Assembly: GCF_013386165.1 (NCBI RefSeq)
Contig: NZ_JACAOS010000001.1
Span: 707,229-771,228 of the forward strand
Length of the DNA stretch: 64,000 bases
Direction of reading: 5' to 3'
From: Pseudomonas gingeri
Lineage (GTDB): Bacteria > Pseudomonadota > Gammaproteobacteria > Pseudomonadales > Pseudomonadaceae
Under the pieces are notes generated by a model. It searched no databases. It was given only the letters and a program-made list of their open reading frames with translations, and had not been told where the DNA came from. Below, one piece after another: positions 4,787 through 55,641 of this stretch. Within the stretch, counting starts at the first letter, position 1. Each line of letters starts with the position of its first letter. The translations under genes were made by a program, and so were the position numbers.

Positions 4787-5257
4787 ATGGCTATTGATAT
4801 CGGTATCAGCGAAGCAGACCGTAAATCCATTGTTGAAGGTCTTTCCCGTCTGCTGTCGGACACCTACGTGCTGTACCTGAAAACCCACAACTTTCACTGG
4901 AATGTCAGCGGGCCGATGTTCCGCACGCTGCATTTGATGTTCGAAGAGCAATACAACGAATTGGCCCTGGCCGTTGACCTGATCGCCGAGCGCATCCGTG
5001 CCCTGGGTTTTCCTGCACCGGGTACCTACTCCACCTACGCCCGTCTTTCCTCCATCAAGGAAGAAGAAGGGGTGCCGAGTGCCGAGGAAATGATCAAGCA
5101 ACTGGTTCAGGGCCAGGAGGCGGTCACGCGCACGGCGCGGGGCCTCTTTCCGTTGCTGGACAAGGTCAGCGATGAGCCGACCGCGGACCTGCTGACCCAG
5201 CGCATGCAGGTGCATGAGAAAACCGCCTGGATGTTGCGCGCCTTGCTGGAAGGCTGA
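4787..5257 (+). CDS. dps: Dps-like ferritin-family DNA-protection protein
   Basis: This 156-residue four-helix-bundle protein is of the Dps/miniferritin type, which oxidises and stores iron at subunit interfaces and protects DNA in stress. The first ferroxidase ligands are visible in [11 protein letters not shown] and the following helix [22 protein letters not shown], with D and E spaced as in the family. Length and order match PA0962 of P. aeruginosa. The gene has its own leader and strong ribosome-binding site, and is followed by a hairpin. Regulation by OxyR or RpoS would be expected, but I cannot see a site. Confidence 0.88.
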
Positions 5258-5943: not shown

Positions 5944-6016
5944 CCCGCTCTTTGCTGCATGGCCCATCACGGGCTCGGGCAGCAGTGATGTTGTTATCTG
6001 ATTGCCGAGACGCCCC

Positions 6017-6321: not shown

Positions 6322-8097
<1,776 letters not shown>

Positions 8098-10240: not shown

Positions 10241-11299
10241 GTGATTGAAGCCGATCGTTTGATAACCGCCTCCGGCGGGCGTGACCGCGAGGAGGTCCAG
10301 GATCGCGCCATTCGGCCATTGAGCCTGGCCGAGTACATCGGCCAGCCGACGGTCAAGGAGCAGATGGAGCTGTTTATCCAGGCGGCGCGCGGGCGTGGCG
10401 AGTCCCTTGACCACACCCTGATCTTCGGTCCGCCGGGCCTGGGCAAGACCACCCTGGCCAATATCATCGCCCAGGAAATGGGCGTGTCGATCAAGAGCAC
10501 CTCGGGGCCGGTGCTGGAGCGGGCCGGAGACCTGGCGGCGCTGCTGACCAATCTCGAACCCCACGATGTGCTCTTTATCGATGAAATCCACCGCCTGTCG
10601 CCTGTCGTCGAAGAGGTCCTGTACCCGGCGATGGAGGACTTCCAGCTCGATATCATGATCGGCGAAGGGCCGGCGGCGCGTTCGATCAAGCTCGATCTGC
10701 CACCCTTCACCCTGGTCGGTGCTACTACCCGCGCGGGCATGTTGACCAACCCGTTACGTGACCGCTTCGGTATCGTCCAGCGTCTTGAGTTCTATAGCAC
10801 TGCAGATCTGGCAACTATCGTTACCCGTTCGGCGGGGATTCTGGGTTTGCCGCTGGACCCGGAAGGCGCGTTCGAGATCGCCCGACGGGCCCGGGGTACA
10901 CCGCGGATCGCAAACCGCCTGTTGCGGCGGGTGCGTGATTTTGCCGAAGTGCGAGCCAAGGGTCATATCACCAAGGCGGTGGCGGACCTGGCCTTGAATC
11001 TGCTGGATGTCGACGAACACGGTTTCGATCACCAGGACCGGCGCCTGTTGCTGACCATGATCGAGAAGTTCGACGGTGGTCCGGTCGGGGTGGACAGCCT
11101 GGCGGCGGCGATCAGCGAGGAGCGGCACACCATTGAGGATGTGCTCGAACCTTACCTGATCCAGCAAGGCTACATCATGCGCACCCCCCGTGGACGGGTG
11201 GTGACCCGGCATGCCTATCTGCACTTCGGTTTGAATATTCCGTCGCGCTTGGGTGAGATGCCCGTGGTAGACGAGTTCCTTGATGCGTTGGACGAGTAA
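10241..11299 (+). CDS. ruvB: Holliday junction branch-migration ATPase RuvB
   Basis: RuvB is the hexameric AAA+ motor that pulls DNA through the RuvA-bound junction. Walker A ([11 protein letters not shown]), Walker B (LFIDEIHRL), sensor 1 (GATTRAG) and the arginine finger region (PLRDRFG) are in order, followed by the winged-helix DNA-binding domain ending [18 protein letters not shown]. Start is GTG immediately after ruvA, and the length of 352 is normal. Confidence 0.97.
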
Positions 11300-32476: not shown

Positions 32477-32720
32477 ACCCAAAAAAGCTCATGCAATAAG
32501 CTGGGGCTTTATTCAACCGTTGGCCCGGCTAGGTGTTCGGTTGGGTGCAACTTTCGCCCTTCCAGAGCGACAAGTCACCCTTTCCACTCCCAGCTCCACG
32601 AAAACGGAGAATGGCTCTATGAGCTATTGGTCTGAGTCGCGGGCGGCCCTGGTCGACCTTTCGGCAAGAATCTGCGTGCTCTGTGAAGCGCCCTGAACTC
32701 CTGCTCCGGGCCTGGGAAAT

Positions 32721-34488: not shown

Positions 34489-36039
34489 ATGAGGCTGCCA
34501 ATAGGTACGCAGCGCGAGGTGCTACGTCTCGCGAGCGACCCCAAGCTTTCGAATAGAAAGATTGGTCTATTAGCCAAAGTGTCCCACAACACTGTTCGCA
34601 CCATTCGCGATCAGTTGGCTCAGTGCGGGCAAAGCTGGGAAGAGCTAAAGCACCTTGACGACAAAGCGCTCGCGGAGCGTCTGCATACCGAGCAGAGAAC
34701 CTCATCTCAAAGGAAGGTCTACCCGTCATGGCCCGTCGTCCATGAAGAGCTAAAACTTCCTGACATCACCTTAGAGCTCCTATGGCAAGAGTTTCGTACG
34801 AGCGAGCCAGAAGGCGTGTCTTATGCTCAGTTCACGCGACTCTATCGTGAGTGGGTCAATAGGCAAAAGCTGAGCATGCGACAGATTCACCTCCCCGGAG
34901 ACAAGTGCTTCGTGGACTTTTGTGGCAGGACAATGCCCGTGACCAACCCGGACACGGGAGCGATTAGCCAAGCCCAGGTGTTCGTGGCAACGCTAGGCGC
35001 CTCGGGATACATTTTTGCCACCGCTGTGAACAGTCAAACGACCCCAGACTGGCTCAGATGCAACGTTCTGGCCCTGGAGTTCTTCGACGGGGTTCCCCGG
35101 TTCGTTGTGCCTGATAATTTGAAGTCAGCAGTGACTAAAAACACGAGAGATGTGGTGACCTTAAATCGTGCCTATGCCGAGTTTTCTGAGCACTACGGAT
35201 TTCAAATTTACCCCGCCAGACCGCGTAAACCGAAAGACAAGTCGCTAGGTGAGATTGCCGTTCAACTGGTACAGAGGTTCGTTCTCGCAAGGCTGAGAGC
35301 GAGCACGTTTTTTTCCCTAGAAGAGCTCAACGAGAAAATCAGCTACTGGGTCGATGAGCTAAACAATCGTATCACACGGACGTACCCGAAGAGCAGAACC
35401 AGCCGCTTCCTTGAGCTTGATTATCCAGCCCTCAAGCCCCTTCCAGAACAGCGATACAGCTACAGTCAGTGGGTGTATCAGGTTCGGGTAGGCAGCGACT
35501 ACCACGTAGAATTTGAAGAGCACAGCTACTCCGTCCCTTATCACTTTGCGAATCTTCTTGTCGATTTACGCGTGCGACACGATTGGCTCGAAATCCTTCA
35601 TCAACGCCGTGTCATCGGCTCGCACAAGCTCAATCGCCAGCGCGGCACTAGCACCCTCAGAGAGCACTTGGCCCCGAATCACAGCCATTTTCAAGACTCC
35701 CAGCCGGAAGCGCTGATGGTATGGGCTGAGACTGTCGGGCCGGAAACACTCCGTTTCGTGAAGGACAACCTCAATCTAAGGAAAGATTTCGCGACAGGTT
35801 TGAAGGCCGTTATTGGCCTGAAACGCGACGTTCGCACGGGTGCGATCACGCCGTCTCGCCTTGAATCCGCGTGCGGCTATGCCAACAGCTTGAAAATCCT
35901 GAGTTCTGAGCGGCTACGATCGATCCTTCGGAACGAATCTGACCTGCGTCCCAACTACCAAAGATCCGCCCCCTTGGTCGAACACACCAACATACGCGGT
36001 GCTGAATACTACGCCTCACAAGGAGATGAGCCGCTATGA
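34489..36039 (+). CDS. istA: IS21-family transposase IstA
   Basis: The 516-residue DDE transposase has an N-terminal helix-turn-helix (REVLRLASDPKLSNRKIGLLAKVSHNTVR) and an rve catalytic core with D in GDKCFVDFCGRTMPV, D in VPDNLKSAV and E in KPKDKSLGEIAVQL. The C-terminal part (YSVPYHFANLLVDLRV) binds DNA in this family. All catalytic residues are present. It overlaps istB by 4 bases. Confidence 0.93.
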   Translation: MRLPIGTQREVLRLASDPKLSNRKIGLLAKVSHNTVRTIRDQLAQCGQSWEELKHLDDKALAERLHTEQRTSSQRKVYPSWPVVHEELKLPDITLELLWQEFRTSEPEGVSYAQFTRLYREWVNRQKLSMRQIHLPGDKCFVDFCGRTMPVTNPDTGAISQAQVFVATLGASGYIFATAVNSQTTPDWLRCNVLALEFFDGVPRFVVPDNLKSAVTKNTRDVVTLNRAYAEFSEHYGFQIYPARPRKPKDKSLGEIAVQLVQRFVLARLRASTFFSLEELNEKISYWVDELNNRITRTYPKSRTSRFLELDYPALKPLPEQRYSYSQWVYQVRVGSDYHVEFEEHSYSVPYHFANLLVDLRVRHDWLEILHQRRVIGSHKLNRQRGTSTLREHLAPNHSHFQDSQPEALMVWAETVGPETLRFVKDNLNLRKDFATGLKAVIGLKRDVRTGAITPSRLESACGYANSLKILSSERLRSILRNESDLRPNYQRSAPLVEHTNIRGAEYYASQGDEPL

Positions 36040-36782
36040 AGTCAATCCTCGATACTGCCCAAAACCTCATGACTCTTGGTCTGCACGGGATGGCCGTGGC
36101 CTACGAGCGACAGCTTGAAACACCGGCGCTGCTGAAAGAACCATTCGATACAAGGCTTGGTTTAATGATGGACGCCGAAAATAGCGAGCGTGAGAGCAGA
36201 AAGGTTGGACGTTTGCTAAAGGCCGCGAGGCTTCGTGAGAATGAAGCCACAATGGACAGCATTGAATTCAAAGCATCCCGAGGCATAGACCGGAATACTG
36301 TCATGACCCTCGGAGAGTGTGAATGGTTAGCGCGACGTCAGAATGTGATCATCACAGGCGCCACGGGCACTGGCAAAACTTGGCTCGCTTGCGCACTCGG
36401 AAACCAGGCCTGCCGCCTTGGGCGAGCGACGCTGTATCGCACCGCCAGCAAGCTTTTTGAAGAGATCTCACTTTCTTACGCTGACCACACCATGCCCAAA
36501 CTACGTCGGCAATTGATACGCGCAGAACTATTAATCATCGACGATTTGGGCATCGGTGGCATTGACGCCCAACTCGGCCCGTTCCTCCTAGACGTTATCG
36601 ACCAGCAGTCACAGAACGGGTCATTGCTGATCACAAGCCAGTACCCGAAAGAAAAATGGTATGACCTGTTCTCTGACCCCACGATTGCCGACGCAATTCT
36701 TGACCGTATCGTTCACAAGTCCCATGTCATCGAACTGAGGGGCGAATCGATGCGAAGGGTAAAAAGTCGCAAACGGGCGTAA
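36036..36782 (+). CDS. istB: IS21-family helper ATPase IstB
   Basis: This 248-residue AAA+ protein of the DnaC/IstB type has Walker A (ITGATGTGKTWLACALG) and Walker B (LLIIDDLGIGG). It forms the oligomer that selects target DNA and activates IstA. It ends 20 bases before the right-end repeats begin. It looks intact, so the element may still move. Confidence 0.93.
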   Translation: MKSILDTAQNLMTLGLHGMAVAYERQLETPALLKEPFDTRLGLMMDAENSERESRKVGRLLKAARLRENEATMDSIEFKASRGIDRNTVMTLGECEWLARRQNVIITGATGTGKTWLACALGNQACRLGRATLYRTASKLFEEISLSYADHTMPKLRRQLIRAELLIIDDLGIGGIDAQLGPFLLDVIDQQSQNGSLLITSQYPKEKWYDLFSDPTIADAILDRIVHKSHVIELRGESMRRVKSRKRA

Positions 36783-37217: not shown

Positions 37218-38584
37218 GATCGTGTCCCAGGAAGTGGTGTAACTGAACCAACCGAAGGCGCCCTGCGGGCGAAAGAGGTTGGTCATCGTGGTTTTTGGCT
37301 AACGTTGTGTTTGCGAAGACCTAACGAACACCAGGAAAACCACGATGACCAAATCCACTATCGCATTGACCGAGCTGGTTGAGAAAGGGGCAGACGCCGA
37401 TCTGCTCAAGCAAATGATTCAGTTCGTTGCCCAGCGCATGATGGAGCTCGATGTCGAAGGCCTCTGCGGCGCCGGCTTCGACGTCAAAAGCCCAGACCGG
37501 GTGAACAGCCGCAACGGCTATCGGGATCGCCTGTGGCAAACCCGCGCCGGAGACGTTGATCTCAAGATCCCCAAGCTGCGCCAAGGCAGCTATTTCCCTG
37601 GCTTCCTTGAACCTCGGCGCACCGCCGAGAAAGCCATGGCCGCAGTGATTCAGGAAGCCTATATCCAGGGTGTTTCAACTCGCTCCGTAGACGAGTTGGT
37701 CAAGGCCATGGGCATGACCGGTATCTCCAAGAGCCAGGTCTCGCGACTGGCCGGCGAGATTGACGAGCGTGTCAACGCGCTCCTGGATCGCCCACTTGAA
37801 GGTGACTGGCCCTACCTCTGGATAGATGCCACCTACGTCAAAGTACGGGAGGCCGGGCGTATTGTGTCGGTCGCCGTCATAATCGCCGTGGCGGTGAACA
37901 CCAATGGTGGCCGGGAAATCCTGGGCATGCGCGTCGGTCCCTCGGAAGCTGAGCCATTCTGGACGGACTTCCTGCGAAGCCTGATGCGACGTGGCTTGCG
38001 CGGTGTAAAGCTGGTGATCTCTGATGCCCACGAAGGGCTCAAAGCGGCCGTATTCAAAGTGTTTCATGCGACCTGGCAACGCTGCCGGGTATACTTCATG
38101 CGCAACGCCATGGCCCAAGCGCACCATGGCGGCGGCCTTGCTGCGCAAGGTGTTCGCCCAGGACAGCCGAACCGAATGCCATCAGCAATGGCGCCTGGTA
38201 GCGGATCAGTTACGGGAAAAGTACCCCAAGGTCGCCGTACTCATGGACGGCTGCGAGGATGAAGTGCTGGCCCACATGGCGTTCCCTAAGGCGCACCGGC
38301 AACAGTTGCACAGCACGAACCCGCTGGAACGGCTCAACGTCGAGATCAAGCGCCGTACGGAAGTGGTGGGTATCTTCCCGAACGATCCAGCCATTACACG
38401 GCTGGTCGGGGCGATGCTGCTGGAGCAGAACGACGAGTGGTGCCTGCAACGGCGCTATATGCAGTTGGAGGCTTTCGAGGCGGTCAGCGATAATCCGCAG
38501 GCCAAGCTGTCGGCCGTGATCAACTAAACGGCAAACTCAGTGGCCAGAGCCATGATGAGTTACACCACTTCCTGGTACACGATC
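37218..38584 (+). mobile_element. IS256-family insertion sequence (defective)
   Basis: A 1.37-kb element is bounded by inverted repeats of about 27 bp that share GGAAGTGGTGTAACT (left 37230-37244, right 38558-38572, inverted). It holds one transposase gene, which is frameshifted. No clear target duplication flanks it. Confidence 0.85.
37345..38527 (+). pseudogene. IS256-family (Mutator type) transposase, frameshifted
   Basis: The first 265 residues read normally ([25 protein letters not shown]..., [15 protein letters not shown] with the first catalytic Asp, [12 protein letters not shown] with the second). Near 38105-38130 the frame shifts. The rest, with the final Glu region (STNPLERLNVEIKRRTEVVGIFPND), continues in another frame to 38527. 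About 20 residues normally between WQRC..FMRNA and FAQD are missing, so a deletion caused the shift. The enzyme should be inactive. Confidence 0.88.
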
Positions 38585-39016: not shown

Positions 39017-40966
39017 TCATGGCACAGGCAACACCTCCTCCTCTATGAACCACTTGCTCTTTCTGATGCTCTCCAGCGCAGCGTCTGGGTTTTCCGACCA
39101 GAGCACTAGCGCCAAGCTCTCGCGCGCCCGGCTGCAGGTGACGTACAAGAGCCTCAAGCTTCGGTCAATGGTTGTCTCCTTCTTAGCATCGACGTTGCTC
39201 ACGTCATTTTTGCTGAGATCCTTCGCACCAAACAACTTGTCGTAAGAGATTTGGAAGCTACCTGCTTCACTGTCGTCCATCACGACCATCACGTGAGGAA
39301 ACTCGGAACCCTTTACGACCTGATGCGTGGCGAGGTCTGTTTTTCCGGCTAAGTAGTTTCGGTAGCGCGCTAGCTCCTCCCAAGGGGCAGCAAATAGAGC
39401 ACACCATCCGCGTCGCATTCGAGTCTCCGACGGTTCCTTTGTGCGCGGAGGAGGCGCAGCAGGCGCGGGCGAATTGTCACTGAAGGCTGCCACTAAACGA
39501 GAATCTACTTCGAACAGTCGCGCTTCCAACACTGACTCCAGAATCTCCCTCACCGTGGCACTGGGTTTGGAACTGACCGTCGCAAAGCTCGAGATAGCTT
39601 GGAGCATTTCCATCGTGCGCAATCGTCTAGTCGCACCATCCTCTGGCAAAGAATTCAGGCTGCCATTCCGTCTCAGAACCTCCGTAGCCGCAAACTCGTT
39701 GATGCATCCGTCAGCTTCGACGCAAGCAGCTAGTTCCATCAATTCCTCTAACAACAGCCGCGCTACGGTTGGGCCTTTGTTCTCACCGCTTCCCTGTGGC
39801 GCCGCAGCGTTAGGGTCTAGGAGATCCATGGCTCGGTAAGCTTGGAGAAACCCCCCGCGAGTGGCGACAAGCTTGTGCTCAAGCGCAAGGATTTGGTGTC
39901 CCCGCGTTCTCCAGACGGTAGATGAAGTTGCGTCAGCCATGAGCTCGGCGCACAGTTCCTCCTTCTTTACTTTCTCATCAGAGCCGAGCTTCGCATCCCC
40001 CACAAACACTCGTACAACTCCGCCAGTTTTTTCCGTACGTGGATGCTGTTTGACACCAGTAGGTTGCTGCGTGCGGCCCTCATGCTCCGCCTCCCAAATC
40101 TTGTTTATCAGCGCAACGATTCGCTGTTGGCTGCGATGGTTCATCTGCAGCTCGGGACGACCCCACCCTTCTGGCACCAGTCCAGGCAGGTCTAAATGGC
40201 CATCCGTGTAGATTCGTTGCCGATGGTCACCCAACAACCCCAAAGTAAGTCCGTTCCCCTGTGGAGTGGCAACCTCCATCAACGCATCTAGGACGCCCTT
40301 CATTGTGTCTTGCGACTCGTCGATGAGGACTATCGGATGACGGTCTCTTAATATGGTTCGGAGAGTCGGCCTGTTCGCCAGCAGCCAAGACGCGGCATCC
40401 AGAACGTGTCTATGTTGGATTGCCCCTGAACCATACCTGTTCCGGTCCGGGTGGTAGATGAACTTCTCAGTAGTACGAAATTCTTCGATGTCCTGCTCAA
40501 TCTCTGCGAAGTTTGTTTCATCAGTGGCGCTGATCCCTCTTACCTTCTGGGAGGCTTCGAGCCTCTCCCGTTCCAATTGCTTCGTCTTGACTGCGATAAG
40601 GGCCTCTCTAATGTCGTCGTCAAACCCACCAATCAACTCCCAGCAGAAGGAGTGAATGGTCGAGACATTAACAAGGTCGTTATTACCCAAGCGTCCGTTG
40701 ATTACGGAGACAGCATTCTTGGTGAACGTAATCACTCGAATAGAACGACCAAGTAGCCGAAGGTTTCTCGCGAGTTCACCCCCAGAGTCATGGGGAACCA
40801 CACCCGTGAGCCGACGTAGAACCTCAACTAACGTCCTAGTCTTCCCGGATCCCGCGCCTGCAAACAGGAAGAAGCTGCGACCTGGCTTTTCCGTAAGATA
40901 GCCACAGATTTCCTCGACGACACCAGCATCGCGCTCATTACCATTGCGAATCAACCCGACGCTCAC
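39017..40966 (-). CDS. UvrD/Rep-like helicase, Gabija GajB-like
   Basis: The 649-residue superfamily 1A helicase has Walker A (AGAGSGKTRTLVEVL, residues 36-43), motif II (VLIDESQDTMKGV), motif IV region (NHRSQQRIVALI), motif V (VVKGSEFPHVMVVMD) and motif VI (LYVTCSRARESLALVLW). It is longer than typical GajB (about 500). Its start overlaps the stop of the OLD-nuclease gene by 4 bases, the gajA-gajB order of the Gabija anti-phage system. In Gabija the helicase subunit senses or processes DNA and works with the nuclease. Other OLD-plus-helicase systems are possible. Confidence 0.8.
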   Translation of the reverse strand: MSVGLIRNGNERDAGVVEEICGYLTEKPGRSFFLFAGAGSGKTRTLVEVLRRLTGVVPHDSGGELARNLRLLGRSIRVITFTKNAVSVINGRLGNNDLVNVSTIHSFCWELIGGFDDDIREALIAVKTKQLERERLEASQKVRGISATDETNFAEIEQDIEEFRTTEKFIYHPDRNRYGSGAIQHRHVLDAASWLLANRPTLRTILRDRHPIVLIDESQDTMKGVLDALMEVATPQGNGLTLGLLGDHRQRIYTDGHLDLPGLVPEGWGRPELQMNHRSQQRIVALINKIWEAEHEGRTQQPTGVKQHPRTEKTGGVVRVFVGDAKLGSDEKVKKEELCAELMADATSSTVWRTRGHQILALEHKLVATRGGFLQAYRAMDLLDPNAAAPQGSGENKGPTVARLLLEELMELAACVEADGCINEFAATEVLRRNGSLNSLPEDGATRRLRTMEMLQAISSFATVSSKPSATVREILESVLEARLFEVDSRLVAAFSDNSPAPAAPPPRTKEPSETRMRRGWCALFAAPWEELARYRNYLAGKTDLATHQVVKGSEFPHVMVVMDDSEAGSFQISYDKLFGAKDLSKNDVSNVDAKKETTIDRSLRLLYVTCSRARESLALVLWSENPDAALESIRKSKWFIEEEVLPVP

Positions 40967-43257
40967 AGGTAAACCTCCGATTCAAGATTGAGCTGCTCTT
41001 GGAGCCATTCAAGTGCGTCAGCGATATATTTCGGGCAAGTAATGACTTCACCCGAAGCAATTTTCTCGAAAATCGTTGCAGAAAAGTCTCCTTTGCTGAA
41101 CTTACCATGCATCAGCGTGTGGAGCTTTTTCGCCAAATCGGCATTGGATTCCGCGCCGGTCACTGTTGTCACGACCTTGCCAAGTGCTCCAGTAGGCTTC
41201 TTTATCTTCACCCCCTCTGGGCTGAACTTCTCCTTACCCAACTCCTTGAACCATGAAATGTTTGAAAGGATCAGGGAGTCTTCGAAGGAACTCGGCCAAC
41301 AGTTATCAGCCTCTTTCACAGGTAACTGCCACGTGAATCTGACCTTGCAGTCAGCCACCTCGCTCCAGACTAAACGGGCCTCTTGGGGTTCCTTGAAATC
41401 ATCGAGCTCAGTGCACTTAGGGTGCCATGTCCTAAGCGTCGCGTTCCCACACTTCAGCCCTGGTTGCCCTTCATTGGCGACAGCAGTAAGAGTGATTTTG
41501 CTGTTAGCGTCTGAAGACTCTTGCACGGGGTCAATATCAGTAATGATCACCGTTGGAATTCTCAGACGCTCCACCAGCGGGCGAAGCCGATGAGCGTGGC
41601 TACCGCCGATATCAAGGAGCGACACGTACCGACTGCTCAGCGCTCCGAACTGTCGTTCTATGAATAGAGGAACCAGCATACGCTCCGCCGTCCCCTCAAC
41701 GAAAACTGCCGCATCTGCGAACAGAAGATCCGTGTGCTGCACACGGAAGTATCTCTCGGCGAAGATCCGCGTATCGTCATCGTCACCAAAAACGTCACCC
41801 ATATTCACAATTTCCGTGCTGGGCATCGCCACAGTTTTTGACTTGGCAACGCGCCGCAGGTACCGCAGGTGAGCAAAGCTCTGCGCATGCGCCAGGTGAC
41901 TAGAGTGCGTACTGATGAGTAATTGACTCTTCAACGAGCCAGGTTCTGTTGCCGTCGGACTGATTAGTTTGTGCGCTTTATCCGAAAAGATGCGCTGGAC
42001 CTGGACATGTAGGTGCGCCTCGGGCTCTTCAATCATCACAATATGGACTGGCGCAGGCGAGCCCTTTGTAGGATTCAGCCGCGCCGCCTTAAACGACACC
42101 AACTGATAACTCAAGGACTGAAGGTTTTGATAACCAAGGCCGATTGAGTATTCCGGCAGCAGATCATCCACAGAGTCCTTGCTCATGCGGTACTGAACTG
42201 CCGTACCGTGGTCGAGGAGATCCGCGGTTTGAATGCGCGTGCGGAAGTGAATTTCGTGCGGGTCATGGAGACCGGGATATCCCAGAATCTTGACGTCCTC
42301 AACCGACGGAGCTAGAGCATCTCGAATCTTCTGGTCGAGGTCGGCCTGAGCGTTCGCGACCGCTTCGACTAGATCAGCACGATGCCCATGACCAGTGGCA
42401 GCGATGTTCAGATGCTGTCGCGCAAACTTCAACAACTGATTGGAGAAGAGGCCCACACGATGCGGACCGGATCCGGAACGCGTGTCCGCTTCTTCAGTGC
42501 CTAACCCACGCTGCGCCGGTACGAAGTCCACTCGAACAAGCCGGGAAAGGTGGGTTCGGTCAACAGGCGTCGCGTTGGATGCCAGAACTTGAGCCTTGTA
42601 CACCTTACCCTTCTCGATGGGGTTGTTCTCCGCGTCCAGCTTGTAAACCTGAACGCGACCAAGGTCACTAGGGTACCGGAGCCAGAAGTCCAGAAGATCG
42701 ATGGGCCAGGCGTGCGAGGCTTTGTCCAAGTCCTTCACAGGAGCCCGGGCCTCACGATAGCGCCACGCAAGTCGCTGCAGTTCGTCAACAGACGAGGCCG
42801 GCTCCAACCGAAGGCGAACGCCGACCGCACCACCTGTCCAGTTGAATTTCGAAAGGAAGGGTGCGACGAAGTGATACATCCCTTCCTCGGCATTGAGCCA
42901 GAGGTCCAACGTTGGCATTGAAGATCGTAGCGTCACGAGCTGAGCGTCCCAGTCGTCGACGGACGAATCAGCTGTTGCAGGATCCTCGGCCAAGCCTTCC
43001 CAGAGTTTCCCTAGGGCTCTCAGAGCAGGCCACTGCGATAGGCTGATATCGAATGCCCCAAACGTCGGCGCATCCGAGAGGAACTGGCGAAGTGCGGTTA
43101 GGATTGACGTCTTCCCACTGTTGTTGGCTCCAACAAGAATCGTGGTTTTTTCGTCGACGTCGAGCTTGACTCTGGTAAGGCGTCGAAACTGACAGAGTTC
43201 GACGTGGCTGAGGGTAATGCTCCCAGAAGTGACTGAGGTAGGTGCTTTGTCGGTCAT
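40963..43257 (-). CDS. OLD-family ATPase/TOPRIM nuclease, Gabija GajA-like
   Basis: This 764-residue protein has an ABC-type ATPase domain with Walker A GANNSGKTS (residues 43-51), Walker B IVMIEEPEAHLHVQ and the H-loop LLISTHSSHLAHA. A C-terminal TOPRIM nuclease follows, with E in VFVEGTAERMLVPLFIE and D-x-D in VIITDIDP. This is the class 2 OLD arrangement that pairs with UvrD-like helicases. It is about 180 residues longer than the best-known GajA, with an insertion inside the ATPase part and a longer tail. It is first in a two-gene operon, between mobile elements. Confidence 0.83.
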   Translation of the reverse strand: MTDKAPTSVTSGSITLSHVELCQFRRLTRVKLDVDEKTTILVGANNSGKTSILTALRQFLSDAPTFGAFDISLSQWPALRALGKLWEGLAEDPATADSSVDDWDAQLVTLRSSMPTLDLWLNAEEGMYHFVAPFLSKFNWTGGAVGVRLRLEPASSVDELQRLAWRYREARAPVKDLDKASHAWPIDLLDFWLRYPSDLGRVQVYKLDAENNPIEKGKVYKAQVLASNATPVDRTHLSRLVRVDFVPAQRGLGTEEADTRSGSGPHRVGLFSNQLLKFARQHLNIAATGHGHRADLVEAVANAQADLDQKIRDALAPSVEDVKILGYPGLHDPHEIHFRTRIQTADLLDHGTAVQYRMSKDSVDDLLPEYSIGLGYQNLQSLSYQLVSFKAARLNPTKGSPAPVHIVMIEEPEAHLHVQVQRIFSDKAHKLISPTATEPGSLKSQLLISTHSSHLAHAQSFAHLRYLRRVAKSKTVAMPSTEIVNMGDVFGDDDDTRIFAERYFRVQHTDLLFADAAVFVEGTAERMLVPLFIERQFGALSSRYVSLLDIGGSHAHRLRPLVERLRIPTVIITDIDPVQESSDANSKITLTAVANEGQPGLKCGNATLRTWHPKCTELDDFKEPQEARLVWSEVADCKVRFTWQLPVKEADNCWPSSFEDSLILSNISWFKELGKEKFSPEGVKIKKPTGALGKVVTTVTGAESNADLAKKLHTLMHGKFSKGDFSATIFEKIASGEVITCPKYIADALEWLQEQLNLESEVYL

Positions 43258-43583
43258 ATCTATCCATAGACGTCAGGTTGAAGCAACCAACGAAATTGTG
43301 TGGTTGCAGATACATGCGAGGGCGCGATTGCGCCGTGCCGCCTGGCCTGACCAACCCCAGTCTCTCGACGAGCCCTCCCTTGAGATTTATAACGGAATTT
43401 CAAGGCGAAACCCAATCAGAAATACCGACCTTCTGGGACTAACCCTGCGACTTGAGCTTGATTTGCGTCACTGCACCAATGAGCAGATGTCGAGCTCAGA
43501 CTGAGGAACACTTCATTCATGAGCAAAGTCCGCAATCAGCAGAGCTGACATCCACATCGGTGCGGTGAATGGCCGCAATGGGT
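43258..43583. other. Upstream region of the OLD-nuclease operon
   Basis: About 325 bases should hold the promoter of the minus-strand operon. A plus-strand frame (43217-43504, 95 residues) crosses it. Its part beyond 43290 has protein-like composition (RNTDLLGLTLRLELDLRH), but its start lies inside the nuclease gene and has no ribosome-binding site. It may be the tail of an older disrupted gene. Confidence 0.35.
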
Positions 43584-43763
43584 CGATTCTGTTGAAAAAG
43601 TCGGTCTCGGCTTTCACGAAAGAAAAGTACGCGTCTGAGATTGAAATCCATATTTTGAGCAGAGGGTACAGGACTCAGATTTCACGTAGCAGCGTGCAAA
43701 AATGACGTTTTCACCGCTCAATGCATGGACCGCCAGCCCGGGTCGACTTTTTCAACAGAATCG
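43584..43763 (+). mobile_element. 180-bp miniature inverted-repeat element, copy 1
   Basis: The element is bounded by perfect 20-bp inverted repeats (CGATTCTGTTGAAAAAGTCG and its inverse). It has no gene. A second copy with the same orientation lies at 47126-47304; they differ by one inserted base near 43670 and little else. Such non-autonomous elements move with the transposase of a related IS, which is not in this window. Confidence 0.85.
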
Positions 43764-44071
43764 GTCGACTTCTGCCGGTCACGACAGGCAGAAACCGGCC
43801 ATGAGCGGACGTTCGCTAGAGGCGTTTTTGTGGCCAGAGTCGAGTACGAAGGCAAGGGTCCGTAACAGAAGAAACTGTCACTATAAAACAGCTTTAATCG
43901 AAGGATTTACGTGCCCCACACCAGTGAAAGAATTAAATATAGGAATTTCAGGAGGTTATGAGGATTTACGGACAAGTCGAGATGAATAATCCGAGTAACA
44001 GAGCATGGTGCCATTACGCCATTTCGCATGGTTGGTATATGCTCTCGTAAAGATCAATCTTAGGGGGCACT
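43764..44071 (+). other. Leader region of the kinase operon
   Basis: About 308 AT-rich bases lie between the miniature element and the kinase gene. Just outside the element, TTCTGCC...GGCAGAAA makes a short hairpin. AGGGGG lies six bases before the kinase ATG. No gene is seen; a promoter for the kinase operon should be here. Confidence 0.45.
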
Positions 44072-45181
44072 ATGAACGATGAACCGAACGCCGCTTATCG
44101 CTTAGAGGGTATTGATCTTGAGGATGGTTGGATAGTAGGCAAAAGAATTGTCACAGGTTCAGAGGGCGGCGGCTCAGGTGGTTTCTTTTCTGTATCCTAT
44201 GAGGTTCGTAGAAATGGCCAAGAAGCCTTCTTAAAAGCATTTGATATTGTTAAAGCACTTCAAATAGCAGCGCAACAGGGAAAAACGCTAATAACGGCGT
44301 TGCAAGAACAGGCTCAAGCTTTCAACTTTGAGACTGCATTGCACGATTTGTGCTTAGGTGCCAAAATGAGACGTGTTGTCAAAATCCTGGCCCATGGACA
44401 AGCAATTGTTCCAAGACTCGAGAACGAACAAATTTTCCAAATTCCATACATGATTATGGAGTTGGCGGACGGCGGAGATGTACGCGGATATATAGGAAAA
44501 ACACTTGCGATTGATATGGCACTAAAGCTTACTTATCTCAAGGATGTAGCGTCAGGCATACTACAGCTGCATAAGGCAAAGGTGGCTCATCAAGATCTTA
44601 AACCATCCAATGTAATGGTTTTTGGTAATGAAATGGCTAAAGTTGGCGATCTTGGCAGGGCGAGCAGTCAGGATCTTCCAAGTTTGCATGACTCCAGTAG
44701 CATTGCAGGCGATTGGAATTACGCACCGCCGGAGCAGCTATTTCAGCATCCGCTAGTTGACTGGATGGATCGGCGCATGCGTTGCGACCTTTATCAGTTT
44801 GCTTCTGTAGTTACATTTGTTTTTTTTGGGACGACGGTCAATCTAGAGCTTATTAGTAGACTTCCTAACCATGTTAAGCCTTTCGCGTGGCAAGGGGAGT
44901 CATCTTCTTATTCAAATTCATTACCTTTCTTTATAAACGCGTTTGACGAGGCGTTAATAGATTGGGAAAAACTATGCCCTGAGTGGCTGAGCAGTAGTTT
45001 GATAGATATAATAAGGCAGTGCGGAACGCCGGATTATACTCAGCGCGGGTGTCGAAAAACACTTAGGCAGTCAGTTCCCACTTTAGGCCTTGATCGATTC
45101 GTTAGCGAACTCCAACGACTGATTCTGAGAGCCAGTATTGAGGCTAGAAACACGTCAAGCAAGCAGGCAGATTCACAATGA
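44072..45181 (+). CDS. Hanks-type Ser/Thr protein kinase
   Basis: This 369-residue soluble kinase has a glycine loop (TGSEGGGSGGFFSVSYEV, residues 28-45), the ATP-binding Lys55 in FLKAFD, a catalytic loop HQDLKPSNVMV (173-183; HQD in place of HRD), a metal loop DLG (193-195; in place of DFG) and APPEQL in place of APE. Catalytic Asp, Lys and Asn are present, so it is probably active. A 30-residue insertion follows the VAIK-like lysine. The gene is AT-rich compared with the host and overlaps the next gene by 4 bases. Bacterial kinases of this sort in cargo regions are known in phage-defence systems; the target here is unknown. Confidence 0.85.
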   Translation: MNDEPNAAYRLEGIDLEDGWIVGKRIVTGSEGGGSGGFFSVSYEVRRNGQEAFLKAFDIVKALQIAAQQGKTLITALQEQAQAFNFETALHDLCLGAKMRRVVKILAHGQAIVPRLENEQIFQIPYMIMELADGGDVRGYIGKTLAIDMALKLTYLKDVASGILQLHKAKVAHQDLKPSNVMVFGNEMAKVGDLGRASSQDLPSLHDSSSIAGDWNYAPPEQLFQHPLVDWMDRRMRCDLYQFASVVTFVFFGTTVNLELISRLPNHVKPFAWQGESSSYSNSLPFFINAFDEALIDWEKLCPEWLSSSLIDIIRQCGTPDYTQRGCRKTLRQSVPTLGLDRFVSELQRLILRASIEARNTSSKQADSQ

Positions 45182-46872
45182 ACCCACTCGGTTTAAAACG
45201 CGATATAATTCCTATTTGGAAACCATCTTACGAAGCTGCTAAGTCGCCTGAGTTGCTCGCGGTGAAAAAGCAGGTTTCTCAGATTAAGGCGGAGGCTCAA
45301 TCGGAAACTGTACTAGCGGATTTTCTTAGCAATAAGAACCTTGGAACAGCCGCAGACCTATTGAATGCCTCGATGCTCGAGGGGAAGTCGGAGCTTTCGA
45401 TCATTGCCGCAGAGTATGTTATTAGCTCAAAGGAAAAGCTTCCTGCTTTAGAAGCAATCAGTCGAAAAGTGTTAGGCCTCAAACCGCTTGATACTCACCT
45501 CAATCATCTAAATGAAATTGCCGCTTTACGATCGAGACTGATCAATATGCCGCAAAATCCAATCGCATGGGTTGATTTGGCTCGTGCATATACCGTAATA
45601 AATGAAAGAGAGAAATCAGAAAAAGCAATGTGGGTAGCGCTGCGATATTCCAATAACCATCGTTGGATATCCCGTATGGCGGCTAGATTATTTGTGCACT
45701 ATGAGGAGCTAGGGAAAGCGCATCGAGTATTATTGTTAAATGAAAACTTGCGATCTGATCCTTGGTTACTGTCTACGGAATTAGCGGTGGCGAGGTTGGC
45801 AGGGCGACCATTAAAGAATTGGAATCAGGCTAAAAAGCTCGTCACGGCATCAATAAATCCAATTCATTTATCTGAGCTATCGAGCTCAATCGCCACTTCA
45901 GAAATTTTGGGGGGTGCTGACAAGAAAGCTCGTGCTTTTTTTAAACAGTCTCTGATTTCACCAACCAGTAACTCTTTGGCACAAATAAAGTGGGCAGATC
46001 GCTCGTACAAGCTAGGGTTTGGAAAGCAAATAGAGGCGACTCTTGCTCATTCCAACAACGCCTATGAAGCAAAATACTGGGAAGCGTATGAAAAGAAAAA
46101 TATGCAGTTAGCTCTAAAACACGCTGATGCCTGGTGGAAAGAAGAACCTTATTCCGTTTCTCCTCCGCGCGCAATCACATACCTAGCATCAATTGTTAAT
46201 GACATGCCGTTACTACTTAGATCCGCCAACATCGCTCTAAAAGCCAATCCTAGGGATATCGTTCTAAAATTAAATTATTTATTTGCTCAGATCAGTACCT
46301 TGGGATACGCCTCTTCAGTAGATAGTAAAACCTTAGAAAAGGTCACGCGCACTCTTAGAGCTATAATGCATGGCCCGGATAAAAGCGAAGCGGCTCATGC
46401 CATAGCTAATATTGGTATGCTTGCTTATAGGACGGGAGAGTTTGATCTAGGTAAGGCGTACTACGACCACGCTGAAGAATATTTTGAGAAGACGAAAAAC
46501 CCCTCTCGACTTTTTCTCCTGTTGAACCATCTCAGGGAAGCGTTGATAGCGGATTCTGAATGGTCTGGGTGTATAGTTTCGAGGATAAAAAATTTTATAT
46601 CTCAACCTCAACCTGTCATCTCCGCCGCTGGTGAGTATTATCTCAATAAAATAGAATTGTTGGAAAAGCAACCAGGAACATGGAAAAATAAATTTTCCAA
46701 TGTTTTCATAGACGATGAGACATCTGATGAAGCTGCCGAGCCTGCAAAAATATTGTCATTGGAAGAAGCTTCAAAAAAATTCTGGCTTCCTTCCGACTTC
46801 TACACTGCGAATGAAGCTCTTCAGTTATTGAAAACTGAGCGTGACAACTCTACAGTAAAGTCTAGAAAATAA
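45178..46872 (+). CDS. Large helical-repeat (TPR-like) partner of the kinase
   Basis: The 564-residue protein is entirely alpha-helical with TPR-like units (NPIAWVDLARAYTVINEREK, AHAIANIGMLAYRTGEFDLGKAYYDHAEEYF, and others). There is no signal peptide, membrane helix or catalytic motif. It is translationally coupled to the kinase (ATGA overlap) and shares its low GC, so the two entered together. It is probably the kinase's scaffold, substrate or sensor. I know no named family for it. The two-gene unit lies between two direct copies of a miniature element. Confidence 0.7.
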   Translation: MNPLGLKRDIIPIWKPSYEAAKSPELLAVKKQVSQIKAEAQSETVLADFLSNKNLGTAADLLNASMLEGKSELSIIAAEYVISSKEKLPALEAISRKVLGLKPLDTHLNHLNEIAALRSRLINMPQNPIAWVDLARAYTVINEREKSEKAMWVALRYSNNHRWISRMAARLFVHYEELGKAHRVLLLNENLRSDPWLLSTELAVARLAGRPLKNWNQAKKLVTASINPIHLSELSSSIATSEILGGADKKARAFFKQSLISPTSNSLAQIKWADRSYKLGFGKQIEATLAHSNNAYEAKYWEAYEKKNMQLALKHADAWWKEEPYSVSPPRAITYLASIVNDMPLLLRSANIALKANPRDIVLKLNYLFAQISTLGYASSVDSKTLEKVTRTLRAIMHGPDKSEAAHAIANIGMLAYRTGEFDLGKAYYDHAEEYFEKTKNPSRLFLLLNHLREALIADSEWSGCIVSRIKNFISQPQPVISAAGEYYLNKIELLEKQPGTWKNKFSNVFIDDETSDEAAEPAKILSLEEASKKFWLPSDFYTANEALQLLKTERDNSTVKSRK

Positions 46873-47125
46873 ATAAAAATCCGTTTAAGGGGGGGCGAGT
46901 GTTCTAGGCTGCTAAAGAGTTAAGCCTGGACGACAAAACAAGATTTTGACGCTGTATTACCTGAGGCGTGTCATTGCTTCAGGTACCTGCCTTTATGGAA
47001 GTAGTGCTGTCAATTTACCTAGAACGACCTAGGTTCTGTAGACGTCCTCACGAGTTATAGATTAGAACCAACCATTCGTGATTGACCGATTCTGGCTGAA
47101 ACTGTCGTGAGCGGCAGCTATTGGC

Positions 47126-47304
47126 CGATTCTGTTGAAAAAGTCGGTCTCGGCTTTCACGAAAGAAAAGTACGCGTCTGAGATTGAAATCCATATTTTGA
47201 GCAGAGGGTACGGACTCAGATTTCACGTAGCAGCGTGCAAAAATGACGTTTTCACCGCTCAATGCATGGACCGCCAGCCCGGGTCGACTTTTTCAACAGA
47301 ATCG
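47126..47304 (+). mobile_element. 179-bp miniature inverted-repeat element, copy 2
   Basis: This is the same element as at 43584-43763, in the same orientation, with perfect 20-bp terminal inverted repeats. Immediately to its right another TTCTGCC...GGCAGAAA hairpin occurs (47312-47336), as beside copy 1, so both copies sit in similar target sequence. The 250 bases to its left hold no gene. Confidence 0.85.
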
Positions 47305-47429
47305 GCCGATTTCTGCCCGTTGCGAGAGGCAGAAAGCGACCCATTGCCGCCGGTCAACATTGGCTGAAATGGGTCGAACGTGGTTAGTCATGAGATGCCG
47401 CGTTTCGCAATTTTGCTGCTAGATTGTAA

Positions 47430-47510
47430 TCAGGAGATGGCATTCCTCCTTTAACCGCCTTCGTGCTGATGATGCCTACGTGAACCCTGGACAGGGTGCG
47501 TAGGTGTATC
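47430..47510 (+). promoter_or_regulatory. Fluoride riboswitch upstream of crcB
   Basis: The conserved core of the crcB RNA motif is visible: GGAGATGGCATTCCTCC, TTAACCGCC and GCTGATGATGCCTACG, in the right order and spacing. CCTACG (47475-47480) pairs with CGTAGG (47499-47504), and a further hairpin (CCTGTCC/GGACAGG) lies downstream. The motif binds fluoride and turns on fluoride-exporter genes; crcB begins about 115 bases downstream. Confidence 0.92.
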
Positions 47511-47623: not shown

Positions 47624-48007
47624 ATGCTGAAATCACTTGTAATTATCGCCGTTGGCGCGTCACTTGGTGCCTGGTTGCGCTGGCTCTTGGGCATGAAGCT
47701 AAACGCTCTGTTTCCTACGATTCCCCCAGGCACAGTGGTTGCGAACATGGTTGGGGGCTACATCATTGGCCTAGCTATCGCGTTTTTAGCCGCATCCCCC
47801 ACCCTGAGTCCTGAGTGGCGTCTGCTGATCATCACGGGATTCTGTGGCGGACTTACCACCTTTTCTACCTTTTCGGCAGAAACAGTTGCCCTGATCCAGG
47901 AAGGCAGGCTGCTGTGGGCGCTTGGTTCGGTTTCATTGCACGTCGTGGGCTCGCTGGCGATGACGGCTGCCGGGCTTCTGTCCTATCAAATGATTGGCAC
48001 GCGTTGA
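47624..48007 (+). CDS. crcB: Fluoride channel CrcB/FluC
   Basis: The 127-residue protein has four membrane helices and the family motifs [29 protein letters not shown] and [15 protein letters not shown]. The last contains the Phe box and Thr/Ser track of the dual-topology fluoride channel. It lets fluoride flow out of the cytoplasm. It follows a fluoride riboswitch and leads a DUF190 gene by 10 bases. Confidence 0.95.
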
Positions 48008-48341: not shown

Positions 48342-48444
48342 TCCGGCATCCTTTTACCAGGCAAGGCTTCAGGAAATCTTCCTGTGTTTAATAGCTCCGT
48401 AACATGATTTTACATTTTGAGCGGAGCTAGATAAGATCGACGGA

Positions 48445-48537
48445 TTGGAGATGGCATTCCTCCATTAACCAACCGCTGCGCCCGTAGCAGCTGATGATGC
48501 CTACAGAAACCTGATCAAACCAGGTCTGTAGGCGTTC
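48445..48537 (+). promoter_or_regulatory. Fluoride riboswitch upstream of the CLC-F gene
   Basis: The same core recurs: GGAGATGGCATTCCTCC, ATTAACCAACCGC, GCTGATGATGCCTAC. CCTACAGA (48500-48507) pairs with TCTGTAGG (48525-48532), which can act as the switching hairpin. The antiporter gene starts about 55 bases downstream. It gives the second half of the island its own fluoride control. Confidence 0.92.
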
Positions 48538-48590
48538 GCGCTCAGAATCCCTTTTTGGTCAGGCCCACTTACATTTTTGTGGCTGGCCAA

Positions 48591-49937
48591 ATGTCTAAAT
48601 TTCGACGACCTGAACAACTCGACTTACTGCCCTATATAGCGAAATGGCTTGCGCTCGCTGGCCTAGTAGCTCTTTTGGCAGGCTCTGCTTCTGCGTTATT
48701 CCTCCTTTCCTTGGATCATGCCACCCAGTGGCGAGAAACCCATCCTTGGGTGATCTGGCTCCTGCCAGTGGCTGGCTTCGCCGTGGGACTTGCGTATCAC
48801 TTGATAGGCAAACCCGTTGATGCCGGAAACAACCTGATCATCGATGAGATCCATGATCCTAAGAAGATAGTGCCTTTGCGCATGGTGCCGATGGTGCTGA
48901 TCGGAACCGTGGTTTCCCACCTCTTCGGTGCATCTGTGGGACGTGAGGGTACGGCGGTGCAGATGGGCGGCGCCCTTGCCGATCAACTGACGCATGTCTT
49001 CCGTCTACGCCGCGAAGACCGTCGGGTGATTCTGATGGCTGGCATCAGCGCTGGTTTTGCGTCCGTCTTCGGCACCCCCCTCGCTGGAGCTTTGTTTGGA
49101 CTTGAAGTGTTGGCCATTGGACGTATGCGTTACGACGCGCTTTTCCCTTGTGTGGTTGCGGCGATCGTTGCTGACCAGGTGGGACAAGCCTGGGGAGTGG
49201 TTCACACACATTACGTCATTGGCGAAGTGGTGCCGGTGCAGCTCTGGAGCGTTATGGCTGTGGTAGCCGCTGGGATTGTCTTCGGCCTTACAGGCCTGCT
49301 ATTCGCGACAGCGACCCACAAGCTCGGGGCCTTCGTTAAGCGGCTTATCACCTATTCACCATTAAGACCCTTCGCCGGTGGCCTGCTGATCGCAGTCGCA
49401 GTGTGGGGGCTCGGTAGTAACCATTACATCGACGTCGATAAGTACATCGGACTGGGCATTCCGAGCATCGTCCAATCCTTTCAAATGCCAATGGCTCCGT
49501 GGGATTGGCTCGAAAAAATGGTGTTCACCGTTGTCTCCCTGGGTACTGGATTCAAGGGCGGCGAAGTCACTCCGCTGTTTTACATCGGCGCCACTTTGGG
49601 GAATGCGCTGGCTCCCCTCTTGCACCTTCCCTTCGGCATGCTGGCTGGTATCGGCTTTGTCGCCGTCTTTGCCGGTGCAGCTAATACACCACTGGCAACC
49701 ATCGTCATGGCCATGGAGCTCTTCGGGCCCGAAATTGCTCCGCTTGCAGCCATTGCCTGTATCGCCAGTTATCTCGTATCCGGACATACCGGGATCTATC
49801 ACGCCCAGCGCGTCGGTCACAGCAAGCATCACCGTCCTCTTCCGGACGAGATTCGGCTCTCTGATATCAAGCAATTTCATGCTCAAACTGAATCCGCTAG
49901 CGAGCGGAAAGTGGCTCTTATGGGGGAAGAGAAATGA
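48591..49937 (+). CDS. CLC-F type fluoride/proton antiporter
   Basis: This 448-residue CLC transporter has GREGTAVQMG (the ion-path Glu motif) and VDAGNNLI, the stretch that replaces the chloride-type GSGIP selectivity sequence in fluoride-specific CLC proteins. About ten or more membrane segments span residues 20-420, ending with NTPLATIVMAMELFG. It should expel fluoride in exchange for protons. The riboswitch upstream supports this. I use the ATG giving MSKFRRPEQ; no strong ribosome-binding site is seen, and an in-frame GTG 12 bases upstream is possible. Confidence 0.93.
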   Translation: MSKFRRPEQLDLLPYIAKWLALAGLVALLAGSASALFLLSLDHATQWRETHPWVIWLLPVAGFAVGLAYHLIGKPVDAGNNLIIDEIHDPKKIVPLRMVPMVLIGTVVSHLFGASVGREGTAVQMGGALADQLTHVFRLRREDRRVILMAGISAGFASVFGTPLAGALFGLEVLAIGRMRYDALFPCVVAAIVADQVGQAWGVVHTHYVIGEVVPVQLWSVMAVVAAGIVFGLTGLLFATATHKLGAFVKRLITYSPLRPFAGGLLIAVAVWGLGSNHYIDVDKYIGLGIPSIVQSFQMPMAPWDWLEKMVFTVVSLGTGFKGGEVTPLFYIGATLGNALAPLLHLPFGMLAGIGFVAVFAGAANTPLATIVMAMELFGPEIAPLAAIACIASYLVSGHTGIYHAQRVGHSKHHRPLPDEIRLSDIKQFHAQTESASERKVALMGEEK

Positions 49938-51502: not shown

Positions 51503-52816
<1,314 letters not shown>

Positions 52817-55345: not shown

Positions 55346-55641
55346 GCCGGCGCCCTGACGCATTTCGTCGGCGGTAGCAGTGCGTGTTTGCGCAAAGCTT
55401 CAATCAGCGAGGTCTCTGCCAGTTCGGGCTGGGGGTGGTGTCTGAACCATTCGTCCAGCACGAGCTTGAGTTGAGATTCGATATCACGCCGGTCCACGGC
55501 CCTCACCAATACCTGCTCCAGCTGCTCGATCAGCACAGGCGCACACACTTTAAGGGTCTGCAGAGCGTCCTCCCCAGGCGTTTGAAGCAACTGGGTCAGG
55601 TTTTCAATCAAGTTCTGAGTCAGGGTATTCAGTGTTCTCAT
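55342..55641 (-). CDS. Small conserved-position transfer-operon protein
   Basis: The 99-residue helical protein (MRTLNTLTQNLIENLTQLLQ..., VLDEWFRHHPQPELAETSLIEALRKHALL) has no motif that I recognise. It overlaps both the ATPase stop and the DsbA-like start by 4 bases, which fixes it as part of the operon. Confidence 0.7.
   Translation of the reverse strand: MRTLNTLTQNLIENLTQLLQTPGEDALQTLKVCAPVLIEQLEQVLVRAVDRRDIESQLKLVLDEWFRHHPQPELAETSLIEALRKHALLPPTKCVRAPA

Follow-up and report, generated by a model that had tools for sequence, protein, structure and literature searches.

What is the function of a two-gene unit that lies between two near-identical miniature inverted-repeat transposable elements (MITEs) in the genome of Pseudomonas gingeri? 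The unit, at positions 43584–47304 with its bracketing elements, belongs to a stretch of 64,000 nucleotides that we call the window (NCBI RefSeq assembly GCF_013386165.1, contig NZ_JACAOS010000001.1, positions 707,229 to 771,228 of the forward strand). It encodes a Hanks-type protein kinase and a partner built of helical repeats, which an initial annotation, made from the letters alone, had proposed as a good candidate for an undescribed defence or competition module. We find a real, strictly paired and probably defensive module of a kinase and a tetratricopeptide repeat (TPR) protein that belongs to the candidate family PDC-M71.

The kinase gene (44072–45181, plus strand, 369 amino acids) and the TPR gene (45178–46872, plus strand, 564 amino acids) overlap by 4 nucleotides (ATGA), with the TPR start codon overlapping the kinase stop codon, as expected of the coupled kinase-then-partner order first proposed. 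The kinase matches the PADLOC model PDC-M71A (E 2.4e-96, residues 2–358 of 369) and its partner matches PDC-M71B (E 1.4e-94, residues 7–476 of 564). Judged by gene matches and order, the pair is PDC-M71, a two-gene phage-defence candidate of PADLOC-DB 2.0.0: both proteins are matched over most of their length, the genes are adjacent and the kinase comes first, and we see no difference in membership. PDC systems are putative, having been drawn up by guilt-by-embedding without experimental validation, as stated in the accessible part of a Pseudomonas aeruginosa study (PMC10855318). The pair is therefore a member of a catalogued, unvalidated kind, and the description of it as undescribed does not hold. 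We found no literature on PDC-M71 or on kinase–TPR defence, in a search whose coverage excludes preprints and most subscription journals and which is thus no proof. New here are the strict pairing, the hotspot and defence contexts, the invariant catalytic residues, and a TPR conservation that is focused on the groove and joined by an N-terminal motif.

We used the TPR protein to gather loci from genome contigs, viral contigs, whole genomes and plasmids; 13 distinct loci were left once duplicates had been removed. These comprise the window together with an identical P. gingeri copy (L014, which represents the window in this count), four further Pseudomonas loci (L015, L016, L028 and L029), a prophage-like viral contig (L019), a Citrobacter locus (L018), a betaproteobacterial metagenome-assembled genome (L017), a P4-like satellite (L020), a gammaproteobacterium (L030), and plasmids of Rhizobium, Deinococcus and Arthrobacter (L037–L039). 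In all 13, the kinase lies directly upstream on the same strand. A search in the opposite direction, with the kinase as query, gave six viral-contig loci, four of them new, and in all six the TPR gene follows immediately downstream (TPR profile E 7e-70 to 8e-164 in the new ones). The kinase-then-TPR adjacency thus holds in 17/17 distinct loci, from Pseudomonas to Arthrobacter (Actinomycetota) and Deinococcus (Deinococcota), and answers the question raised at the outset of whether the pair keeps its order elsewhere. Gene junctions are tight throughout: eight overlaps of 4 nucleotides, two overlaps of 8 nucleotides and six gaps of 3–10 nucleotides, with the junction of L113 depending on the start codon chosen. 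Among plasmids, 18 records match the kinase, and the three with at least 80% cover are the three that carry the TPR gene; the other 15 have a cover of at most 49%, and eight of these are listed by name, seven of them as Ser/Thr kinases.

The pair is rare. Of 398 Pseudomonas genomes, 5 carry it, and a second TPR model detected it in 2 of 369 class-level genomes; both counts include the window's own. Among 50,697 phage records, the TPR protein of the P2-like phage L111 had no match, and kinase P0001 gave 11 matches to phage records, all of them partial.

Where the context can be read, it is often that of a mobile element or a defence locus. In the P4-like satellite, the pair lies between the genes for Psu (Pfam E 4e-88) and the integrase, which places it in the psu–int hotspot. 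In two P2-like phages (L110 and L111), it follows the gene for replication protein A and precedes those for portal and terminase, which corresponds to the gpA–gpQ hotspot. Both sites, psu–int in P4 and gpA–gpQ in P2, are described as anti-phage hotspots, with several systems validated by cloning, in the available text of Rousset et al. (PMC9122126). The portal of L111 is 83–85% identical to that of L110. Other prophage contexts include endolysin and umuC genes near L019 and tail genes near L029 and L114. Within about 8 kb, the window copy has a Gabija locus; L015 has Vsr, a C5 methylase and an Eco29kI endonuclease; L030 has SoFic; the plasmid locus L038 has a PycC-like (Pycsar-type) cyclase; and L039 has PDC-S02. 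A patatin gene at L028, which lies beside glmS, and a capP-like gene at L113 are weak pointers in the same direction.

These placements bear on two alternatives to a defence role. In the first, the pair would control lysogeny, induction or the exclusion of rivals by phosphorylating host regulators, and resistance would be secondary. Several copies do lie in prophages, a satellite, and integrative and conjugative or mobilizable elements, and the kinase system KKP is reported to control prophage production (PMC11341870). However, the pair is found in unrelated elements and beside Gabija, restriction–modification and SoFic genes, so it is not tied to the life cycle of one element, and we regard regulation of this kind as very unlikely. 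In the second, the genes would be accessory cargo of mobile elements with no part in defence. The rarity of the pair in Pseudomonas and the housekeeping-type neighbourhood of L016 fit this idea, whereas the placement in the P2 and P4 anti-phage hotspots and the comparison of neighbouring genes described below do not; it is highly improbable.

For this comparison, PADLOC was applied at E 1e-25 to 117 of the 122 open reading frames (ORFs) of at least 200 amino acids that lie no more than 8 kb from the pair; these come from 16 loci, without that of the window. As a control, sixteen 16-kb stretches were placed at round-number positions in related genomes, and 117 of 168 ORFs, from 12 of these stretches, were scanned. 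The neighbours matched 61 families (best E 7e-139) and the controls 5 (best E 6e-35), which shows a direction and not a rate, because the counts are of families and not proteins, some neighbour matches are likely to be phage methylases, and the controls are chromosomal and unmatched for mobile elements. That limit is one of several points that weigh against reading the genes as a defence pair. L016 lies among ordinary chromosomal genes, of molybdopterin and transport type by eye, and L017, L018 and L037 have no firm defence neighbour, only mobile-element genes or nothing firm being seen there (L018 was covered through the pooled PADLOC neighbour scan, in the best 25 of the 61 families). A plasmid record of Deinococcus wulumuqiensis (H8) has a hypothetical protein that matches half the length of the kinase (residues 6–174) and lacks a TPR match at E 1e-5. 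In one Escherichia coli copy, 0H26 (L131:11902-15824), an IS5 element lies between the genes and shortens the C terminus of the kinase, leaving the TPR gene intact; the pair is therefore not always kept intact. The distance matrices of the kinase and TPR proteins agree closely (r 0.90, 0 of 2,000 permutations as high), a correlation that is expected from co-inheritance in an operon alone. Finally, the literature searched yielded no phage assay of the pair.

The association with defence loci or hotspots is nonetheless non-random. The initial annotation held that genes found apart, or in housekeeping contexts only, would count against a defence function; instead, the pairing is strict and the contexts are those of mobile elements and defence. 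Because of this strict pairing and the anti-phage hotspot, prophage and defence-gene contexts, the candidacy for defence is strengthened, and we consider a defence role for the kinase–TPR pair very likely.

Copies of the pair in E. coli extend this picture to a laboratory species. The L111 kinase has a DNA match in 13 of 5,426 E. coli genomes, and in all four of the 13 that were read one common TPR accession follows the kinase. The L110 pair has no near match among the E. coli genomes. In one E. coli record, both proteins match PDC-M71A and PDC-M71B, and AbiP2 (E 2e-195) and a ThsB-like TIR gene (E 4e-132) lie on the same element; in a sister record, a retron-type reverse transcriptase was scored (E 4e-71).

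The architecture of these E. coli elements is of separate interest. L132, L133 and L134 carry RepL and H-NS-like genes, and a MobQ relaxase gene was seen in L131, L133 and L134. A DotA/TraY-like gene and the kinase–TPR pair form the common middle of L132–L134, and their ends vary (AbiP2 or CoiA, TIR genes, and a retron-type reverse transcriptase), resembling a carrier of defence cassettes. In L111, the portal gene is in two pieces in different frames (L111:10806-11755), so this prophage or its assembly may be defective.

The kinase keeps its catalytic residues. It was first described as a Hanks-type kinase with HQD and DLG motifs, and the ORF bears this out, with D175 and D193 in these motifs and a match to Pfam Pkinase (E 4e-16). 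The catalytic loop HQDLKPSN (H173 to N180, with catalytic D175) is encoded at 44588–44611 on the plus strand. Eight residues (K55, E87, H173, D175, K177, N180, D193 and G195) are invariant in the 17 distinct loci as well as across an alignment of 78 kinases, consisting of the window's kinase and 77 chosen from 120 homologues listed out of 404. The structure model has an ordinary kinase fold (mean predicted local distance difference test (pLDDT) score 90.4). Because the catalytic residues are invariant and the modelled fold is ordinary, kinase catalysis is probably under selection.

Similarity to other defence kinases is confined to parts of the protein or to the general plan. Several PD-T4-6 models match the kinase (best E 4e-20), but in the core alone; the near full-length match is PDC-M71A. 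Stk2, a phage-defence kinase of staphylococci, is likewise of Hanks type, and its model matches the core (E 4e-9) but only over residues 129–258, and not at the full length expected of an Stk2-type protein. Stk2 is not known to include a TPR partner. KKP of Pf prophages is, like the candidate pair, a Ser/Thr kinase-based defence on Pseudomonas mobile elements, but it consists of two kinases and a phosphatase (PMC11341870), whereas a single kinase gene and a single TPR gene lie between the MITEs. DS-6 is a two-gene kinase defence that requires kinase activity; as far as the accessible text goes (PMC13092281), it combines a HipA-related kinase with a DUF3037/DUF1829 partner, unlike the kinase–TPR pair. 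No HipA family was among the Pfam matches of our kinase.

The partner had been called TPR-like and unassignable to a family. The first part stands, as the model is an all-helical solenoid (mean pLDDT 84.9), and the second does not, given the match to PDC-M71B. In Pfam the protein matches weak TPR families only, a search of NCBIfam gave no match at E 0.01, and no enzymatic domain was recognised from the Pfam matches or from structure comparisons, which return TPR solenoids. A helices line the inner groove of TPR solenoids. In the first six repeats, A helices are more conserved than B helices (0.62 versus 0.44; 0 of 20,000 permutations as high), with helix labels assigned alternately by hand and permutations that treat residues as independent. 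Within the helices of the ten assigned repeats, 22 residues are conserved in at least 16 of the 17 loci, and 18 of these are on A helices. Three arginines spaced four residues apart, R162, R166 and R170 (45661–45687, plus strand), form a ladder on one face of an inner-groove helix; R162 and R166 are conserved in 17/17 distinct loci and R170 in 16/17. W196 and E233 are also invariant, as is an N-terminal R-x3-P-x-W motif (R8, P12 and W14; 45199–45219, plus strand), which is kept in 17/17 distinct loci although the first 16 residues of the model sit outside helices. The groove may bind a conserved ligand that is probably acidic or phosphate-bearing, and the R-x3-P-x-W motif could be a docking or gating element for the kinase.

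How might such a pair protect a cell? The TPR partner would recognise a signal of infection in its conserved inner groove and would then release or steer the kinase. Once released, the kinase would phosphorylate cell proteins and stop phage production, and the cell would shut down. This order of sensor, kinase and arrest is suggested by the precedents of KKP and DS-6 and by the fact that no enzymatic domain was recognised in the partner. A division of labour in which the partner senses, the kinase acts and the cell stops has about an even chance of being correct, and we put the anti-phage pair with its partner as sensor or gate and its kinase as effector in the same balance. Such a scheme would entail anti-phage activity, direct binding of the kinase to the TPR protein and separate sensor and effector roles.

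The same two proteins could be arranged as a toxin and antitoxin, in which the kinase would be toxic alone and the TPR protein would be a bound inhibitor that the phage destroys, displaces or shuts off. Genes that overlap or nearly overlap are in keeping with this arrangement, as are KKP, in which the joint toxicity of the kinases is checked by a phosphatase (from the available part of PMC11341870), and DS-6, with its HipA-related kinase and partner (likewise in the accessible part of PMC13092281). However, a TPR groove that is invariant across phyla seems to go beyond the needs of a plain inhibitor, and the kinase gene comes first in order; we judge this form unlikely. Alternatively, the roles could be reversed: the kinase would detect infection and phosphorylate its partner, and the TPR protein would then block the phage as effector or adaptor. 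Of the two proteins it is the larger, and its invariant R-x3-P-x-W motif, R162, R166, W196 and E233 could form an active surface; its lack of a visible enzymatic domain points the other way and makes the reversal rather unlikely.

Within the sensor-and-effector scheme, a more specific proposal is that the arginine-lined groove captures a phosphate-bearing ligand, such as an RNA 5′ end, a nucleotide or a phosphopeptide, and that the R-x3-P-x-W motif serves as a docking site through which a Hanks kinase, the agent of cell arrest, is gated. In this specific form the proposal is unlikely; if true, it would describe a phosphorylation-based immune switch of a new mechanistic type, comparable in bacteria to IFIT-type sensing coupled to a kinase effector. 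The best natural-protein match of the TPR profile among PDB sequences is IFIT1, a human antiviral TPR protein that binds RNA 5′ ends (E 1.4e-7), but the match is made of weak pieces, none of them significant alone (best i-E 0.033), and a designed TPR protein scores equally. R166 and R170 align with Arg and Lys in an FRYAAK segment that fits IFIT1 R255 and K259, which are listed RNA contacts, and R162 aligns with Thr. TM-scores with IFIT1 are 0.25–0.31, and structure comparisons give TPR solenoids in general. The resemblance to IFIT1 is not evidence of common function.

The pair also differs in composition from its surroundings. The stretch between the MITEs has 44.0% G+C compared with 55.8% for the whole window, as the AT-richness noted at the start implied, and all six of the 127 half-overlapping 1-kb windows below 46% G+C fall in or over it. 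Third codon positions have about 40% G+C in the kinase and TPR genes versus 61% in crcB and 55% in the enolase gene. The kinase and TPR genes are the two ORFs of at least 100 amino acids between the MITEs; no third ORF of that size was found there.

What brackets the pair is a second question. The two elements (copy 1, 43581–43764; copy 2, 47123–47305; both on the plus strand) are, as first noted, direct and near-identical, with 182 of 184 alignment columns the same. They are about 184 bp long and non-coding, and their inverted repeats are those of an IS1182-family element. We classify them as IS1182-type MITEs because such an element in another genome (L072) has matching ends (5980–6011 and 7577–7604) around its transposase gene (6442–7524; IS1182, 272.3 bits, cut-off 270). 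BLAST of the window's genome gave ten matches: six of these are copies, another three come from the inverted ends of the same copies, and the last is a solitary end of 23 bp. Counting the window's own genome, 31 of 99 Pseudomonas genomes have related copies.

One window copy has the hexamer GGTCGA on both sides and the other has GGCCGA on both sides. An end-motif filter applied to the collected loci gave 29 rows (two non-matching rows of L069 are one element read on two strands). The flanking hexamers of a copy match in 10 of the 29, compared with a shuffled mean of 3.8 (0 of 10,000 shuffles as high). Hexamers that match this far above the shuffled level suggest that each insertion duplicates a short target. 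No such duplication brackets the pair as a whole, whose outer flanks are GGTCGA and GGCCGA; this is weak evidence given the difference of one base. Because each copy has its own hexamer pair and the outer flanks differ by one base, two separate MITE insertions are probably the likelier history than movement as a unit. Spread of the pair by the MITEs, an early idea, thus has no positive evidence in its favour, considering the separate hexamers and the mixed cargo between other pairs of copies, and composite transposition was dropped as the favoured reading on the flanking hexamers, short of disproof. MITE-flanked integrons with outer target repeats do exist elsewhere, as reported in the accessible part of PMC3934969. 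Loss of the pair by recombination between the direct copies is possible. We found no clean empty site: outside the window's genome and the P. gingeri relative, none of the 32 matching places extends leftwards beyond 47415, which is about 110 bp past copy 2, and four relatives inspected over about 16 kb upstream had no match longer than 150 bp to the window left of that point.

Close pairs of these MITEs recur around unrelated cargo in other Pseudomonas genomes. By eye, other pairs enclose short-chain dehydrogenases, a PAAR-type gene, an RND-type efflux pump and others, and the idea that MITE pairs carry defence-specific cargo was discarded. Elsewhere in the window's genome (L031, C4:228000-244500), an inverted pair of related MITEs (4877–5063 and 11074–11260 of that locus) encloses about 6 kb of what appear by eye to be oxidoreductase and regulator genes. 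One ORF (L077:5248-6843) fuses the N terminus of an IS1182 transposase to a GGDEF–EAL (cyclic di-GMP) protein, apparently through an insertion. Two unrelated elements (L018:12160-15495 and, by eye, L072:2213-5639) have a three-gene module of a large serine recombinase followed by two ParB/RepB-like genes.

Beyond the MITEs, the neighbouring locus that had been called Gabija-like is a true Gabija system on the minus strand. It consists of GajA (40963–43257; PADLOC E 5.9e-246, with AAA_15 and OLD-like TOPRIM regions for its ATPase/TOPRIM function) and the UvrD-like helicase GajB (39017–40966; PADLOC E 7.9e-211), and it is these genes (39017–43257), not the kinase–TPR pair, that supply the two components of Gabija. 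Upstream of them are an IS21 transposase/helper pair and an IS256-type transposase (34489–36782 and 37345–38262). A fluoride cassette follows the pair downstream, with two fluoride riboswitches (47424–47485 and 48438–48510), crcB (47624–48007), a CLC-type channel gene (48555–49937) and an enolase gene (51533–52816). A relative (G070) has window positions 32709–54603 at 100.0% identity. Placement in an integrative and conjugative element, also claimed at the start, is apparently correct, as judged from a conjugative transfer ATPase of the traC_PFL_4706 family (55638–58640; 1459 bits, cut-off 520.6), the sole conjugation gene tested.

Known kinase-based bacterial immunity comprises few systems, and their partners are quite different. 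The strict pairing, the P2 and P4 hotspots, and the invariant groove and motif residues make of a catalogued entry a system whose mutants can be specified and tested. In E. coli, a version of the pair lies beside AbiP2 and a retron-type reverse transcriptase, so laboratory testing of this probably defensive module needs no exotic host.

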